In this document: positions 8,177 through 15,769 of the stretch, piece by piece | Position numbering within the stretch: the first letter of the stretch is position 1 | Layout of the letters: each line of letters begins with the position of its first letter | Assembly: GCF_000010725.1 (NCBI RefSeq) | Contig: NC_013854.1 | Span: forward strand, 2,571,001 to 2,635,000 | Reading direction: 5' to 3' | Source of the DNA: Azospirillum sp. B510 | GTDB lineage: Bacteria > Pseudomonadota > Alphaproteobacteria > Azospirillales > Azospirillaceae | Length of the DNA stretch: 64,000 bases | Made by a program: the position numbers and the translations under genes | The notes under the pieces: model-generated | The model's input: only the letters and a program-made list of their open reading frames with translations | What the model was told of the DNA's origin: nothing | The model's database searches: none

Positions 8177-8455
8177 TCAACCGCCCGCCAGGGCGACCAT
8201 CAGCGTCAGGGTGGCACCGCCCGGCAAGGCCGCATCGAGCCCGCCCAGCCTGCGCACATCGTCACGGCCCAGATAGACATTCACGAAACGCCGCAATTCA
8301 CCATCGGTCGTGAACAGGCGATCCCGGAAAATATCCTGGCCGGCGGTGAGCGCCAACAGCGCCTCGCGCACCGTACCACCGGACACCGTCACCTGATCCC
8401 GCCCGCCAACGAAACCGCGCAGCGGGGTCGGCAGCCGGATTGTCACGTCGCTCAC
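8177..8455 (-). CDS. MoaD/ThiS-like sulfur-carrier protein
   Basis: A 92-residue ubiquitin-fold protein ending in ALAGG, the diglycine tail needed for adenylation and thiocarboxylate formation. Family features are the N-terminal strand (VTIRLPTPLRGFV), the GGTVREALLAL helix, and the VNVYLGRDDVRRLGG...LPGGATLTLM end. It starts at GTG 8455, overlapping the tfuA-like stop (GTGA), and sits immediately before the E1-rhodanese gene. Tight coupling to TfuA/YcaO rather than to molybdopterin or thiamin genes suggests it donates sulfur for peptide modification. That role is inferred; a housekeeping MoaD function cannot be excluded from sequence alone. Confidence 0.82.
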   Translation of the reverse strand: MSDVTIRLPTPLRGFVGGRDQVTVSGGTVREALLALTAGQDIFRDRLFTTDGELRRFVNVYLGRDDVRRLGGLDAALPGGATLTLMVALAGG

Positions 8456-9861
8456 GCCTGCATCTCCTCTTCGCACCCGGCCCGGTCGTCCGAAACCGCC
8501 TGCAACGCCTGCTCGGCTTCCGCGGCGAGTTGGCGGACAAGGTCGCGCACCTTCTTCGTCCGCACCAGATCGATCCTCAGATCGAGAATATCCTTGAACC
8601 CATATTCATAAGCCCAGACATCGGGTGGCGCATCGATGCGGCAGGAGGTGTGGGCGAGATGATCGAGGATCAACTCCTCGGTCGTTTCCTGCGACTGCTG
8701 GGCGGTGCCGCCGAAATGCAGCTCCGACACACGCTGCACGAAGGCGGCCTCCTCGGCTATCGCCTCATAGAGCCCACGCAAGCGCAGTTCGTTGAGGACC
8801 GGCCTGGTCGTCCGCGCAAGGAAGCGCCGCGAGATCATCCAGTGCCGCATCGCCCGCTCGGTGGCGAGTTCGGCCATCAGGGCGTCGAACTCCTCTCCCG
8901 TCAGATCATTGCTGCGGCACCATCGCAACAGCGCCTCCGGCGACTCGATGCCGCGCCCCATGCAGAATCGCCGCGCCTCGGCGGTGACCGCTTCGGCATC
9001 CACCTTGACGCCGACGGCTTCGGCCAATTGGCCGGCCAGCAGCCGGCCGAGCGCCGCATTGTTGATCTCGGCGAAATCCGGTCGATGCAGGGCGGCATGC
9101 AGAGCGATATCCGACAGCGGAACGGCGTTGCCGCCATGCTCCACCCGGCGGTCCCGCTCATACAGCACGTCGAAATAATGCGACGCGTTGAAGGCGAAGG
9201 GTGCCGGACGCGGCGGGGTGATCAGACTGGCGAGGTGGTTGAGCAGCGCCTCCGCATCGCGGCGCTTCTGGTCGACCGCGCCCGCGTCGAGAAAGCGTTC
9301 AAGACGCTCGATCTCCGCATCGGTCAGCGCGGCTTCGGCCCAAATCCGATCCCGCGTCCGTTCAGGGAAATAGCAGCGCTTGGCGGCGGTGACCACGCGG
9401 TCGCGCAGATCACCGTCGATCGCTCCGGCGGCCACCGCCGCCTCCAGGCTGGCACGCAAATTCACCAGCGGCTCGGACAAGGGGAGATAGCCGTCTTCGG
9501 GACCGGCATGGGCCAGGGCGACCTCGTCGTCTCCGGTCAGACGGCCGTCGATATACTGCCGCGCCACCTCACCGATCGGAATCATGCCGAAGCCATGGCA
9601 CTCCGCGGCCCTCAGGGCTCCCATGCTCGATGCGCCATAGACCGCGATGCCCCTGGAGAGCGCGAACAGGATCTCCTTGTGCCAGACGGACAGGGACTGG
9701 CCGAAGACACCGTCGATCAGGGCGATCACATCCGGCTGGTGGATGGTCATCGCGCTCAGGATATCGGCCTGGGCGGCCGGAGGCAGATACACCGCATCCG
9801 ACAGGATCGTCCTGGCATCCTCGACGGCCATCGTCGGACCAAGGAAAACACAGATCTTCAT
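8452..9861 (-). CDS. tfuA-like: TfuA-like protein (YcaO partner for thioamide formation)
   Basis: A 469-residue protein whose N-terminal 150 residues are a clear TfuA domain: FLGPTM, IDGVFGQSLSVWHKEIL, GASSMGALRAAE and DDEVALAHAGPEDGY. The remaining 300 residues are a helical C-terminal extension common in long TfuA proteins, with no catalytic motif I recognise. TfuA proteins partner YcaO enzymes in trifolitoxin-type and thioviridamide-type pathways and in methanogen McrA thioglycine formation. They are thought to help deliver sulfur. Start ATG 9861 (MKICVFLG) is set by homology; the frame stays open upstream into ycaO. It lies 26 bp after the YcaO gene and overlaps the sulfur-carrier start. 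Confidence 0.88.
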   Translation of the reverse strand: MKICVFLGPTMAVEDARTILSDAVYLPPAAQADILSAMTIHQPDVIALIDGVFGQSLSVWHKEILFALSRGIAVYGASSMGALRAAECHGFGMIPIGEVARQYIDGRLTGDDEVALAHAGPEDGYLPLSEPLVNLRASLEAAVAAGAIDGDLRDRVVTAAKRCYFPERTRDRIWAEAALTDAEIERLERFLDAGAVDQKRRDAEALLNHLASLITPPRPAPFAFNASHYFDVLYERDRRVEHGGNAVPLSDIALHAALHRPDFAEINNAALGRLLAGQLAEAVGVKVDAEAVTAEARRFCMGRGIESPEALLRWCRSNDLTGEEFDALMAELATERAMRHWMISRRFLARTTRPVLNELRLRGLYEAIAEEAAFVQRVSELHFGGTAQQSQETTEELILDHLAHTSCRIDAPPDVWAYEYGFKDILDLRIDLVRTKKVRDLVRQLAAEAEQALQAVSDDRAGCEEEMQA

Positions 9862-9887: not shown

Positions 9888-11225
9888 TCACGCCACGCCT
9901 GCCCCGGCGGCCATCCGCGTCCTGACCATTTCGGTGAAGCCGTGCGCACGCGATCCGGCCGCGTAGAAATCGAAACGATAGCCCTCCAGGCCGGGAACCA
10001 GAACCCTGACCACCGGAATTCCCATCTCGGGCTGGGTCAGATCGAAGACCAGGACCTGCGACAGGCCCACCCGCTGCAACAGGCCGAGCAGGACGGTGAT
10101 GTCGCCCTCGAAGGTCGGCGTGGACAGGTCGGCATGCCGGCGCCCATCGACCGTTGCCGGCTGCGCCTCCAGCGCGGCGATTCCGGCGCTGCCATCGGCG
10201 TTCTGGTTGCGGATCATGTCCCTGCGGAAGAAATCGTCGCGGGAACCGGCGATCATCACCAGACGGGCCTGGACCGCCTCGGTCAGGGCGCGGCACATGG
10301 CGACGGCCGGCTCCAGATGGCTGCCGTAACCACGGCTCATTCCCATGTTCCGCACATCGCGATCGTAAACCATCGCCATGTAGCTGGGCAGGCCGAGATC
10401 ATTGGTGACGTCGAACAGCAGGGGGCGGACGCCCGCGGCCTCGAAACGGTTCAGCAGATCGCGGACCGTGGGATGATCGATGCTGGTCAGATCGACCCGC
10501 GGCGTCGGGATCTGGAGCTGGTCGCAGGCACTGCCCCAGCAGGACACCGCATCGCGCTCCATCACCTCGCACAGCCCGGAGACGACGGCCTCAAGAATGT
10601 GATTGCCGCTGGCCAGACCGTTGGTGCCGGCGGCGTAGAAGCTCCGCGGGCCGGGCCGGGCGCCGGGGACGCTGTGGAGACCGACCGCGGTCCAGGGCGC
10701 GGCGATGCGGCGGCCACCGATCAGATCCCATCCCCAGGTCCAATATTCCGGCCTGTCGGGCTGGAAGGCGCTGTCCTTGCTGCCCGGCATGCGGTCCAGC
10801 GGGATGCGCCCATCCTCGGGCAGATCGTTCCAGGCGGCCTCGACATGGGGCAGACGCATCGTCTCGGCGTGATAGCACTCGATCCCCTCCATCGCCGCCG
10901 ACACCGTCGCCGCCACCAGGCTGAAGCCCTTTCCAGCGCTTCCCGCCAGGGTCGAGCTGTTCGGGCGGTGCCCAAGAACGGTGTGGATACCGACACGATC
11001 CAGGCCGGTCACGTCCGCCAGCCTGGTGATGCCGCAGCGGGCCAAATGAGGGGTGATGCGGGCCAGTGTCTCTTCCGGGGTGGCCGTCCGGTGGGTGCCG
11101 GTAAAGAAACGCTTCGCCGCCGTGTATACACCGTCCCCCAACCTTATGCCGGCGGTTGGATGCGGCTGATTGTCAGGAAGAGGGGAGGCATGACCGGGCG
11201 TTGCCGGATTTGTCGAAGCTCGCAT
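9888..11225 (-). CDS. ycaO-like: YcaO-domain ATP-dependent peptide-modifying enzyme
   Basis: A 445-residue YcaO protein. YcaO enzymes activate backbone amides with ATP and then form azolines, amidines or, with TfuA, thioamides. The Mg-ATP ligand signatures are present: AAMEGIECYHAE, the second acidic helix LCEVMERDAV, and the ALTEAVQARLVMIAGSRDD segment. The C-terminus (VPGLEGYRFDFY) lacks the proline-rich PxPxP tail of azoline-forming YcaOs, and no ocin-ThiF partner is fused. Both points fit TfuA-type thioamidation. Start ATG 11225 has a GGAAG site 8 nt upstream. A strong hairpin separates it from the precursor gene. Confidence 0.9.
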   Translation of the reverse strand: MRASTNPATPGHASPLPDNQPHPTAGIRLGDGVYTAAKRFFTGTHRTATPEETLARITPHLARCGITRLADVTGLDRVGIHTVLGHRPNSSTLAGSAGKGFSLVAATVSAAMEGIECYHAETMRLPHVEAAWNDLPEDGRIPLDRMPGSKDSAFQPDRPEYWTWGWDLIGGRRIAAPWTAVGLHSVPGARPGPRSFYAAGTNGLASGNHILEAVVSGLCEVMERDAVSCWGSACDQLQIPTPRVDLTSIDHPTVRDLLNRFEAAGVRPLLFDVTNDLGLPSYMAMVYDRDVRNMGMSRGYGSHLEPAVAMCRALTEAVQARLVMIAGSRDDFFRRDMIRNQNADGSAGIAALEAQPATVDGRRHADLSTPTFEGDITVLLGLLQRVGLSQVLVFDLTQPEMGIPVVRVLVPGLEGYRFDFYAAGSRAHGFTEMVRTRMAAGAGVA

Positions 11226-11250: not shown

Positions 11251-11276
11251 GGGCCGGCTTCGTGGGAAGCCGGCCC
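11251..11276. promoter_or_regulatory. GC-rich hairpin between precursor and ycaO genes
   Basis: A perfect 11-bp inverted repeat (11251-11261 with 11266-11276) has a 4-nt loop and lies in the 60-bp gap between the repetitive precursor stop and the ycaO start. No U-tract follows on the minus strand. It could be a partial terminator or an mRNA-stabilising stem that keeps precursor mRNA in excess over enzyme mRNA, as is common in RiPP operons. That function is inferred. Confidence 0.55.
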
Positions 11277-11285
11277 TGCCACATC

Positions 11286-12443
11286 TCAGGCGATGGTGTC
11301 CTTGCCGGCGGTGTCCTTGCCGGCATCATCCGCCGTCGCGGCTTGCGTCTCCGTCGACGGCGTCACCTGAGCCGGCGCGGAGGCCGGAACCCCGAACAGC
11401 GACGACAGGCTGGCGACCGCGGCGGGAACCGAGAACAGCGATGCCGCCTGGGCGGTCGCCGGAACGGCGAACAGCGACGACAGGCTGGCGACGGCCGCCG
11501 GATGCGCCTGCAACGACGCGCAAGCCGCAGGCGCGGACGGCGCCGACGTGGCGGCGGGCGCCGTGAACAGCGACGCCGTCTGGGCGGTCGCCGGAACGGC
11601 GAACAGCGACGACAGGCTGGCGACGGCCGCCGGATGCGCCTGCAACGACGCGCAAGCCGCAGGCGCGGACGGCGCCGACGTGGCGGCGGGCGCCGTGAAC
11701 AGCGACGCCGTCTGGGCGGTCGCCGGAACGGCGAACAGCGACGACAGGCTGGCGACGGCCGCCGGATGCGCCTGCAACGACGCGCAAGCCGCAGGCGCGG
11801 ACGGCGCCGACGTGGCGGCGGGCGCCGTGAACAGCGACGCCGTCTGGGCGGTCGCCGGAACGGCGAACAGCGACGACAGGCTGGCGACGGCCGCCGGATG
11901 CGCCTGCAACGACGCGCAAGCCGCAGGCGCGGACGGCGCCGACGTGGCGGCGGGCGCCGTGAACAGCGACGCCGCCTGGGCGGTCGCCGGAACGGCGAAC
12001 AGCGACGACAGGCTGGCGACAGCCGCCGGATGCGCCTGCAACGACGCGCAAGCCGCAGGCGCGGACGGCGCCGACGTGGCGGCGGGCGCCGTGAACAGCG
12101 ACGCCGCCTGGGCGATCGCCGGAACGGCGAACAGCGACGACAGGCTGGCGACAGCCGCCGGATGCGCCTGGAGGGACACGCAGGCCGCAGGGGCCGCCGC
12201 CACCGAGGAAGCGGCCGTCGCGATGGATTCAGCCGCGAGGCCGGAATTCACCTCGCCGCCCTCCGCCAGGGCGCCGAAAGCTTGGGCGGCAACCGAGCGC
12301 ACATCATCCGCGGTGATGTCGCCGAAGCCGTTCTGAGCGAGAATCGCTTGCTTCCCGGCGGCGTCCGCACCGTTAAGCTGGTCTCGGAAGCCACCATCGG
12401 TAGCAAGGCGCTTAATGAGGTCGAGCGCCTTCTCGTTGGCCAT
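11286..12443 (-). CDS. RiPP precursor: Nif11-type leader with six-fold 44-residue repetitive core
   Basis: A 385-residue protein. Residues 5-55 match the Nif11-like leader family (ALDLIKRLATDGGFR, then ILAQNGFGDIT), followed by ALAEGG at 58-63, a plausible double-glycine processing site. From about residue 85 the sequence is a tandem repeat of 44 residues. Each unit begins after a cysteine (Cys88, 132, 176, 220, 264, 308) and contains SLQAHP, SLSSLFAVPA and ASLFTAPA. The sixth copy decays into a short C-terminal tail with duplicated AGKDT. It is rich in Ala, Ser, Pro and Leu-Phe pairs. AGGAGG lies 7 nt before ATG 12443. Directly upstream of ycaO-tfuA, it is the best substrate candidate. A structural protein is the alternative, but the Nif11 leader argues against it. 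Confidence 0.85.
   Translation of the reverse strand: MANEKALDLIKRLATDGGFRDQLNGADAAGKQAILAQNGFGDITADDVRSVAAQAFGALAEGGEVNSGLAAESIATAASSVAAAPAACVSLQAHPAAVASLSSLFAVPAIAQAASLFTAPAATSAPSAPAACASLQAHPAAVASLSSLFAVPATAQAASLFTAPAATSAPSAPAACASLQAHPAAVASLSSLFAVPATAQTASLFTAPAATSAPSAPAACASLQAHPAAVASLSSLFAVPATAQTASLFTAPAATSAPSAPAACASLQAHPAAVASLSSLFAVPATAQTASLFTAPAATSAPSAPAACASLQAHPAAVASLSSLFAVPATAQAASLFSVPAAVASLSSLFGVPASAPAQVTPSTETQAATADDAGKDTAGKDTIA
11433..12179 (-). repeat. 132-bp in-frame tandem repeat (five full copies plus a partial)
   Basis: Copies begin every 132 bp, judged from the sequence CAACGACGCG at 11511, 11643, 11775, 11907 and 12039 on the plus strand, with a diverged copy at 12171. Units are nearly identical even at third codon positions, differing at few sites, such as Ala/Thr in the AQ(A/T)AS segment. 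This points to recent expansion or homogenisation by recombination. They encode the 44-residue core units of the precursor. Confidence 0.92.
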
Positions 12444-12809
12444 TTTGCCCCTCCTACACCGTCTGCAAATGCGATTGGGTCGGAATCATATGACTGACCG
12501 GACCAATAACATAGGCAATCAGGAAAAATGCTACCTAAAAATTGTATCAAACGGCATTTAAGCTGATTATTTAATTTCCATTACAATGCCGGCTGGCCAG
12601 CCGGAAAGAGTTCTGGAAAGACGTCGGCACGGAAATTCATGCGTTGAAGGATTCACCGAAATATGGGAAGTCCTTCAACGCATGAAATCATAAAACCCAA
12701 CGATCCAATCGCTTCCTCAAAGAGGAATGATCGAATATCTCAGAGAATATGTGGGGCGTAAGGATTGGGGTTTCACATCTTCTCCCTCAATTCCGCCCCC
12801 TGCCCCTCA
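12444..12809. other. Intergenic region between the two precursor genes
   Basis: This 366-bp gap is markedly AT-rich around 12480-12590 in otherwise very GC-rich DNA. It presumably holds the promoter of the 44-residue-repeat precursor and its enzymes. I see no ORF with coding character. It contains the long hairpin at 12636-12686. No clear -35/-10 pair could be assigned with confidence. Confidence 0.5.
12636..12686. promoter_or_regulatory. Perfect 16-bp stem-loop downstream of the first precursor gene
   Basis: Arms 12636-12651 and 12671-12686 are perfect reverse complements around a 19-nt loop. On the minus strand the stem is followed by only three Ts, so it is a weak candidate intrinsic terminator for the 12810-13172 gene. 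It may instead be an mRNA 3'-end stabiliser or a read-through attenuator for the rest of the cluster. Confidence 0.55.
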
Positions 12810-13172
12810 TCAGGTGGGTGAGGAGTATGCAGCCGAACCAAAAGCTGACGAGCCATATGCCGCAGACCCAAAACCGGCCGCCGCGAAGCCAGCTGACGCG
12901 AAGCCAGCCGCCGCAAAATAGGCCTCGACGGACTGACCGGACGACTCGCCAGTACCGCTGGCGGCGCTCGGAGAGGTCGCCGCAAGGTCGCCGCGGCCGG
13001 CAACCGCGGATGGCTGCGCCATCGCCCGAAGGTCCGCCGCCTCAACCTTGGCAAAGCCGTGACGGGCAAGCGTGTCGCGCTTCGCCTTCATGTCCCCGCC
13101 GCCAAGAACCGCACGAAAGGATGAGTCGGTAGCAAGGCGCTTGATAAGATCAACCGCGGTCATCGTAGCCAT
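12810..13172 (-). CDS. RiPP precursor: Nif11-type leader with pentad aromatic repeat core
   Basis: A 120-residue protein. Residues 5-50 form a leader paralogous to the other precursor (VDLIKRLATDSSFR here, LDLIKRLATDGGFR there; then LARHGF). A Ser/Gly/Ala-rich linker follows. The core (85-120) has an aromatic residue exactly every five positions: Phe86, 91, 96, 101, Tyr106, Phe111, Tyr116, with only Ala, Gly and Ser between. There is no cysteine anywhere. Start ATG 13172 has GGAGG 7 nt upstream; upstream in-frame codons lack a ribosome site. It is the first RiPP gene of the cluster. The core resembles a pentapeptide-repeat rhythm but lacks the Asp/Asn of that family. Confidence 0.8.
   Translation of the reverse strand: MATMTAVDLIKRLATDSSFRAVLGGGDMKAKRDTLARHGFAKVEAADLRAMAQPSAVAGRGDLAATSPSAASGTGESSGQSVEAYFAAAGFASAGFAAAGFGSAAYGSSAFGSAAYSSPT
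12813..12917 (-). repeat. 15-bp coding repeat giving a 5-residue periodic core
   Basis: Seven consecutive pentads of the form aromatic-small-small-small-small are encoded at the 3' end of the precursor gene. The DNA repeat is degenerate, unlike the near-identical 132-bp repeats of the neighbouring precursor, so amino-acid periodicity seems to be what is conserved. Confidence 0.8.
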
Positions 13173-14156: not shown

Positions 14157-15769
14157 CCGCCTTTATTCACCAGGGTGGCGAGCGGTCTGGTCGCCGCGTT
14201 GAGATGATCAACGTTGGGCTGTATGGGCGCGCGTCGTCGGCCGCCGCGCTGACGGCGGCGTGACGGTGTCGGAGTTGGTGGTGGAGGGGATTGGGTGACG
14301 GCTGGGGCACGCTGCCCCGGTGCTCAGCAGATGAGCCGGGGCATGCGGCCGAGGGCGAGGTGGATGATCGCCTGATCAGGCGCGCTGGTCGGCAGGTGCA
14401 CCTTGATCTGCGTCTTCATCTCCACGATACGCGCGGCGGTCTTCACCAAGCGCAGCCGCAAGGTGTCGAATTGCACCGTGCGCCAGCGGGAGCGTTTCGG
14501 CATCAGCGAGCGCAGGCTCCACAGCAGCCAGTACGCCCCGGCGTGCAGGAACAGGCGGAACTGGTTGGCCGTCGCCTTGGTGCAGGAGGTCCGGTCTGCG
14601 GCAAGGTGGGATTTCCAGGCTTTTATATGATTTTCCGCCTGTCCCCTCGCGCAATACAGGCCGGCATACAGCCAGCGACCCGTGCCGTGGCGTAGGTTGG
14701 TGACGATGAAGCGGCTGTCGGTGCCCTGGTCTCCTGCCTCGACGCGCGCGACGATGCGGCGGACCCGGCTCCAGGTGCTGGCCCCGTCATAGAATTCCTT
14801 GAAGCGGCGCACCTTGTCGGCTCCGGGCATGGCCTGGAAGCGCGCCGCGGTGCTGGCCTCCAGCGTGGTGACGTGACGGCGCAGTGTGCTGCTGGTCGGC
14901 AGACCGAGCACGTAGTCGAGCCCCTCCGCCTCGCACCAGTCCAGCACCTCCGGGCAGGCGTAATGGCCGTCGGCGCGCAGCAGGATCTCGGTCTTGGGCC
15001 AGTTTGCCCGAATGGCGCGGAGCAGGCGACGCAGGAAGGTCCGGATCTCCGTCCCCTTGGGCCGCTTGGCTGGGCGCAGCACAGCGGTGACAAAGCGGCC
15101 GTTGCCGTCGAAGACAACGATGGGCTGGAAGCCGTACTCGTCGTAATGGGCGTTGAACAGGCGCAACTGCTGACCGCCATGCACCGTGTCGAAGGTGTCG
15201 TCTACATCCAGCACGATGCGCTTGGGCACCTGGCGAAAGGACGCGCAGTAGAGATCGACCATGGCTCGGCCCATGCGCAGCAGTGCGCGGGTATCCGGCA
15301 GGTTCTCCAGGCGCGAGATGGTGGCTTGCGAGCAAAGGTCACGCTCGGACGGCAGGCGTTCCAGGGCCATCTTGAACAGCGGGTCGGAGCGTAGGCTGCC
15401 GGCGTCGTTGCCGTCCTCGTAGCCCGCCGCGATGGCCAGCAGGCGAAAGCCGATGATGTCGGCCAGCGAATGCACGGTGCGCGTTGGATCGCGCGGGTCC
15501 TCAATACAGGCGGCCAGCCGATCGGCAATCCGCAGCCGCTTCGCCACCTCCCGCAGCACCAGCAGCCCGCCATCGGAGGACAGGCGGCCGCCATCAAAGC
15601 GCCCGATCACCGGCTTTCCAGCAACGGGTGACAGGCCGGGCAGCGGCAGGGTATGATCAACCATGGCGGGTGGGCGCTCCGGAAACGGCAGGAGTTGGCG
15701 TCAGCACCCAAATCCTACGGCCGCTCAACGGATGCCGCTACACCCGCCAACCCTCATGAATTTTCCCGG
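14157..15769 (-). mobile_element. IS1380-family insertion sequence, apparently intact
   Basis: A 1613-bp element bounded by imperfect inverted repeats of about 20 bp (14157-14176 and the complement of 15750-15769, 13 of 20 positions matching, with shared CCG, ATTCA and AGGGT blocks). CTAG flanks both ends. It encodes one full-length transposase on the minus strand. Length, single ORF and 4-bp duplication all fit IS1380. It separates the GNAT/RiPP region from the genes leading to glyQS. No passenger gene is present. Confidence 0.85.
14324..15664 (-). CDS. IS1380-family DDE transposase
   Basis: A 446-residue transposase. The N-terminus shows the family signature DGGRLSSDGGLLVLREV. Catalytic acidic residues are recognisable in VLDVDDTFDTVHG, in RADGHYACPEV and in the RGQAENHIKAWK helix. 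The frame is uninterrupted and of full family length, so the copy may be active. The start ATG 15664 lies about 105 bp inside the element's right end. Confidence 0.92.
   Translation of the reverse strand: MVDHTLPLPGLSPVAGKPVIGRFDGGRLSSDGGLLVLREVAKRLRIADRLAACIEDPRDPTRTVHSLADIIGFRLLAIAAGYEDGNDAGSLRSDPLFKMALERLPSERDLCSQATISRLENLPDTRALLRMGRAMVDLYCASFRQVPKRIVLDVDDTFDTVHGGQQLRLFNAHYDEYGFQPIVVFDGNGRFVTAVLRPAKRPKGTEIRTFLRRLLRAIRANWPKTEILLRADGHYACPEVLDWCEAEGLDYVLGLPTSSTLRRHVTTLEASTAARFQAMPGADKVRRFKEFYDGASTWSRVRRIVARVEAGDQGTDSRFIVTNLRHGTGRWLYAGLYCARGQAENHIKAWKSHLAADRTSCTKATANQFRLFLHAGAYWLLWSLRSLMPKRSRWRTVQFDTLRLRLVKTAARIVEMKTQIKVHLPTSAPDQAIIHLALGRMPRLIC

Follow-up and report, generated by a model that had tools for sequence, protein, structure and literature searches.

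A repeat-core precursor encoded beside YcaO and TfuA in Azospirillum sp. B510 appears to belong to a rapidly changing family of multi-copy peptides modified with sulfur

An open reading frame on the minus strand of the window (the whole 64,000-nucleotide stretch of DNA from the soil bacterium Azospirillum sp. B510 analysed here) probably encodes a multi-core precursor of a thioamidated RiPP, with an organisation related to that of thiovarsolin. On the best reading, the system departs from thiovarsolin in its new leader, its new scale and the wholesale turnover of its core, and it seems to represent a quickly changing family whose multi-copy peptides carry sulfur modifications. The family is real, is conserved as a system and is apparently undescribed in the open literature; our search of open-access publications found no description of an Azospirillum repeat-core family. 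The gene order on the minus strand is precursor 2, precursor 1, YcaO, TfuA, ThiS-like carrier and ThiF-rhodanese, and the features are as follows.

12810–13172, minus strand: precursor 2, 120 residues, with a leader of the same family as precursor 1 and a short, weakly repeated Gly/Ala/Ser/Phe/Tyr tail
11286–12443, minus strand: precursor 1, 385 residues, consisting of a leader, six 44-residue units and a polar tail
12261–12443, minus strand: conserved leader of precursor 1 (residues 1–61), predicted to form four helices (pLDDT about 90) and represented by family profile A1
12198–12248, minus strand: second conserved box (residues 66–82, beginning SGLAAESIATAAS), a predicted helix
11391–12182, minus strand: repeat array of six 132-bp units, predicted to be disordered
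11251–11276, minus strand: perfect 11-bp GC hairpin between the precursor 1 stop codon and YcaO
9888–11225, minus strand: YcaO, whose nearest characterised relatives are the McrA-glycine thioamidation YcaOs
8452–9861, minus strand: TfuA (residues 1–211) followed by a helical C-terminal extension of about 250 residues
8177–8455, minus strand: ThiS/MoaD/SAMP-like sulfur carrier ending in ALAGG before the stop codon
7005–8165, minus strand: ThiF/MoeB-type adenylyltransferase with a rhodanese domain, an MCAGGTRS loop and two CxxC motifs

An earlier note on this DNA had described six near-identical 44-residue units repeated every 132 bp, and our comparison of the unit sequences and the output of Tandem Repeats Finder confirmed the description, apart from a half-diverged sixth unit. 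The program reported a 132-bp array at 11419–12191 with 5.9 copies, 97% matches and a score of 1441, far beyond any chance pattern. The first bases of the units on the minus strand are 12182, 12050, 11918, 11786, 11654 and 11522. In the protein, the units start at Cys 88, 132, 176, 220, 264 and 308, and the motif SLQ.HP recurs in 44-residue steps at residues 90, 134, 178, 222, 266 and 310. Units 3–5 are identical at the DNA level; relative to these, unit 2 carries 2 nucleotide differences and unit 1 carries 7, and the second half of unit 6 has diverged (24 nucleotides). A shorter motif appears three times in each 44-mer, as SLQAHPA, SLFAVPA and SLFTAPA (19 occurrences of SL[FQ]xxPA across the precursor 1 protein), and the functional unit may thus be smaller than 44 residues. 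Structure prediction gave a folded leader and a disordered array. Directly 5′ of the open reading frame lies AGGAGGGG, which resembles a ribosome-binding site.

To follow the evolution of the 44-residue units, we compared the window genome (G000) with its sister genome (G018). The copy number varied between homologues (six in G000 and seven in G018) while the unit itself was retained. The residues of G018 at the position of the unit-heading cysteine are V, C, D, C, C, C and G, and cysteine is absent from the arrays of the other species; the description of the units as headed by Cys therefore holds in this strain but not as a defining feature. Between the two genomes, the units had a dN of 0.074 and a dS of 0.675 (dN/dS about 0.11, like that of YcaO), and the corresponding values were 0.062 and 0.68 for the leader and 0.066 and 0.79 for YcaO. 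This similarity indicates that the repeats are protein under constraint. Synonymous differences within the arrays (0.035 and 0.143) were low in comparison with those between the species (0.443), showing that the units are homogenised within a genome by concerted evolution and supporting the earlier proposal of recent amplification or gene conversion. In 45 Azospirillum genomes, the 44-residue unit occurred nowhere outside the precursor 1 gene, and in 82 Azospirillaceae genomes the leader was never seen without this YcaO. The result that the earlier note had named as refuting its reading, the same repeat outside any YcaO context, did not turn up.

The leader had been called Nif11-type, and this assignment was reduced to a resemblance. 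The Nif11 family PF07862 matched it over positions 1–47 of 48 with 15.9 bits, the top match in the genome; as this score falls under the curated cut-off of 23.8 bits, a true Nif11 domain was rejected. The searches that annotated YcaO and TfuA gave no match to the precursor 1 frame, and the 25 Foldseek hits inspected for the leader fold were middling at best. The window leader contains EGG; the leaders of its relatives, which are 49–86% identical to it, do not conserve such a Gly-Gly site for processing. Within its own genome, the leader profile matched the two precursors only.

The same profile detected precursors in 24 of 82 Azospirillaceae genomes, all of them Azospirillum and exactly those with this YcaO (24/24 versus 0/58; Fisher 3e-21, and 3e-13 within the genus, neither corrected for relatedness). 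It detected none outside Azospirillum in a sample of 385 genomes of the class, and none in plasmids. The synteny of precursor and enzymes is kept across the related loci, and leader and enzymes are conserved, with nine unrelated, clade-specific array units of 5, 9, 10, 15, 15, 15, 18, 25 and 44 residues. The 44-residue unit occurs in the window genome and G018, a 25-residue unit (PAPAFSAVAAPASAFSAAAQSASAV) in nine Azospirillum genomes, and an 18-residue unit (AGFAAAGAPSPAASAAGM) with its variants in five. There are three kinds of 15-residue unit (ATANPAAAMPAAAMP, GAIWSGAPAAASPAA and ASMSMLAGTAAPAAS), and the shortest units are IAAGQIAGGT, AGIFAGQPA and ATAMP. On a tree of YcaO plus TfuA, the array types are clade-specific. 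The units are rich in Ala, Ser, Gly and Pro and nearly free of charged residues; in most precursor 1 arrays, D, E, K and R are absent over about 300 residues, and in nearly every species a polar, mostly charged C-terminal tail follows. Uncut, the arrays measure 80–410 residues. No residue is common to all of them: the nearest approach is Pro-Ala (19 of 22 prolines over the unit types), some arrays have no Pro, and some have nearly no Ser, Thr or Cys.

Some apparent exceptions and side observations concern these arrays. A displaced leader in G032 and G034 was rejected, since runs of N inside the array mark scaffolding gaps, not rearrangement. We also rejected a pentapeptide-repeat fold: the periods 44, 18 and 9 are not multiples of five, though several others are, and the residue pattern is, in our judgement, unlike A(D/N)LXX. 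Draft contigs stop in or just before the array at L048, L051, L053, L054, L058, L060 and L061, and such precursors are therefore likely under-reported in databases. At L059 (9656–11035), the precursor 1 array of G011, about 96 copies of 15 bp, seems to be frame-shifted early in the array, either by a sequencing error or as a pseudogene.

Precursor 2 lies upstream of precursor 1 in the same operon, and its family has arrays of its own, such as SAGFSAPAMA and ASAIETADGRALAPTHVAM. It was not found at L043, L044, L057, L062 and L063, all of which have precursor 1. Between the two precursors (window 12636–12686) stands a perfect 16-bp inverted repeat, TTCATGCGTTGAAGGA, with a 19-nucleotide gap, which was not found at the corresponding place in L041 or L049.

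Judged from its gene content, the operon holds the full set expected for thioamidation of a peptide backbone. YcaO was recognised by Pfam at 4e-76, had TIGR03266 (McrA-glycine thioamidation) as its best NCBIfam family and matched PDB 6pe3 at 1.5e-28. TfuA matched PDB 6xp8 at 6.5e-29, and its predicted model superimposed on that structure with a TM score of 0.83 by target. The helical extension of TfuA (window 8452–9228), kept in 24 Azospirillum orthologues, gave no sequence match and no clear fold in the PDB; it could bind the leader or the carrier. In 23 of 23 related loci, the ThiS-like carrier has Gly-Gly at its C-terminus. ThiF-rhodanese has the rhodanese cysteine loop, and PADLOC returned generic E1-like matches only. 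Archaeal TfuA hydrolyses thiocarboxylated ThiS (PMC8153245), and PMC13063428 describes TfuA working with ThiS homologues as the way in which sulfide is usually supplied where habitats are not rich in it; we therefore read the gene set as a sulfide-delivering thioamide synthetase.

The genes around the operon include two-component, GNAT, transposase, glycyl-tRNA synthetase, ThiF and ThiS genes, and neither ATP-grasp nor amidinotransferase accessory genes were seen there. The IS-type transposase (DDE_Tnp_1_4, window 14324–15664) is upstream of the cluster, and a 100% identical copy lies at about 15059 of L065, on a different replicon and close to a third YcaO-TfuA locus. At the site of the hairpin between precursor 1 and YcaO, most Azospirillum relatives (L041–L061) have GC-rich stem-loops with differing stem sequences; in the examination of covariation, the sequence-only alignment left the stems out of register. 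The hairpin is possibly an attenuator between precursor and enzymes, which would fit a higher output of precursor than of enzymes.

These features can be combined into a mechanism, in which the product size is putative and we infer the backbone thioamides and the sulfur relay by analogy with characterised homologues. The folded leader, together with the ESIATAAS helix, would draw in YcaO and TfuA. On the C-terminal Gly-Gly of the carrier, ThiF-rhodanese would install sulfur in the form of a thiocarboxylate, and TfuA would hydrolyse this group, freeing sulfide beside YcaO. With ATP, YcaO would then activate backbone amides of the repeats, which are disordered and uncharged, and convert them iteratively to thioamides; the SL[FQ]xxPA motif may be the site. 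Repetition would raise the amount of product per leader, and expansion, contraction and conversion would keep the repeats uniform within a genome and the core replaceable between clades. Because array length and unit vary freely, we favour a chain that is cut into small peptides, perhaps by general proteases, a route already proposed for thiovarsolins.

Among the closest known systems is thiovarsolin, whose precursor VarA in Streptomyces varsoviensis has up to five repeats and for which YcaO/TfuA are required (PMC6511847). In both systems the precursor adjoins YcaO and TfuA and has a reiterated core with a copy number varying among relatives, and a cluster-encoded protease is not reported for thiovarsolin either (PMC6511847). 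However, the core of VarA is APR, reiterated in short and imperfect copies, and the window frame has no APR; the heme-oxygenase-like, ATP-grasp, amidinotransferase and MFS genes of the var cluster were not seen beside the window operon. The Azospirillum precursors, in contrast, have a helical leader, units of 5–44 residues, arrays of up to about 410 residues and clade-by-clade replacement of the unit. The McrA-glycine system of methanogens (YcaO-TfuA-ThiS; 6pe3 and 6xp8) shares homologous YcaO and TfuA and a sulfur carrier relay, but its substrate is one enzyme glycine, with no leader-core repeat precursor, and its TfuA is shorter by about 250 residues. Nif11-like precursors have been reported in some TfuA clusters (PMC8120280, from which the word 'repeat' is absent). 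Nif11-like/NHLP precursors have a helical N-terminal leader and a hypervariable core as well, whereas the Azospirillum leader scores under the PF07862 cut-off, Gly-Gly is not conserved and the tandem arrays are long. Multi-core cyanobactin and microviridin precursors also join one leader to several cores (PMC6511847, PMC5934393). They differ in their enzymes. To our knowledge, their cores are fewer and shorter than the Azospirillum arrays.

Several observations count against a multi-core RiPP. The conserved cluster has neither a dedicated protease nor an exporter, there is no conserved Gly-Gly site and no shared residue for modification, and ThiF-rhodanese was not found at L062 and L063; uncut arrays of 80–410 residues far exceed the thioamidated RiPPs known to us. 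The lack of protease and exporter, the near absence of D, E, K and R over the arrays and the polar, mostly charged tail would suit a chain kept at its full length, as a repetitive Ala/Ser/Gly/Pro-rich protein with thioamides and an uncharged array that serves in metal binding, at the surface or as a storage polymer. We consider such a protein unlikely: free variation of array length between close relatives and replacement of the unit fit poorly with a defined scaffold, the array is predicted to be disordered, and thiovarsolins likewise have no cluster protease and yet are cut (PMC6511847). Long poly-thioamide proteins throughout the genus, in which a single leader and enzyme set would sulfurise dozens of amides along an uncharged, disordered, clade-specific chain kept at full length, are rather improbable; if true, they would be a new kind of sulfur-modified biopolymer.

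The presence of Ser, Thr and Cys in the units and a precursor 2 with the same leader family leave some room for a YcaO-TfuA pair that makes an azoline or amidine, or acts mainly on precursor 2 with the precursor 1 array as spacer or decoy. Its probability is small: Cys is not conserved, some arrays are nearly devoid of all three residues, TfuA and the ThiS/ThiF relay point to a sulfide nucleophile, precursor 2 was not found at the five loci named above, and the array is under the same constraint as YcaO. Precursor 1 could also be an ordinary, unmodified structural or low-complexity repeat protein adjoining YcaO-TfuA by chance. Its low-complexity composition and the arrays that Tandem Repeats Finder also detected in control stretches (a rate of about 0.13 per 13 kb, sampled over 400 kb) speak for this reading. 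It is very improbable in view of the exact co-occurrence of leader and YcaO, the synteny and the confinement of the 44-residue unit to this gene in 45 genomes. The earlier proposal of a repeat-core RiPP precursor adjoining TfuA-YcaO is supported.

As an independent parallel, a different leader, RGADGRLYxV (R[GA]xDGxLYxV), is found in further TfuA-YcaO clusters of Alphaproteobacteria, one of them a paralogous cluster of Azospirillum. Its cores are unrepeated at L064, L068, L069 and L071, and are present in two copies at L114, L116 and L120, three at L122, five at L109, about twelve at L121 and about twenty at L112; core sequences include AGRWAITPD, DDSQRHAANFIGTTP, GGKQRFA, RAVMAS and SAEIF. 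The leader pattern was drawn after examples had been seen, and the parallel therefore serves as a lead and not as a test. In a phylum-wide sample, 18 additional TfuA loci gave no convincing repeat precursor. Taken with the thiovarsolins (PMC6511847), the RGADGRLYxV family suggests that a reiterated core is a recurring feature of thioamide systems.

PMC8153245 states as open the question whether TfuA associated with bacterial RiPPs draws on a ThiS sulfur carrier, as its archaeal counterpart does. With carrier, E1-rhodanese, TfuA, YcaO and substrate in one operon of a culturable Azospirillum, this question becomes directly testable. Thioamides occur only very rarely in living systems. The family is also a natural experiment that sets one leader and enzyme set against nine unrelated repeated cores. 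It therefore bears on the core tolerance of a leader-guided thioamide synthetase, and the enzyme set could become a tool for producing poly-thioamide peptides.
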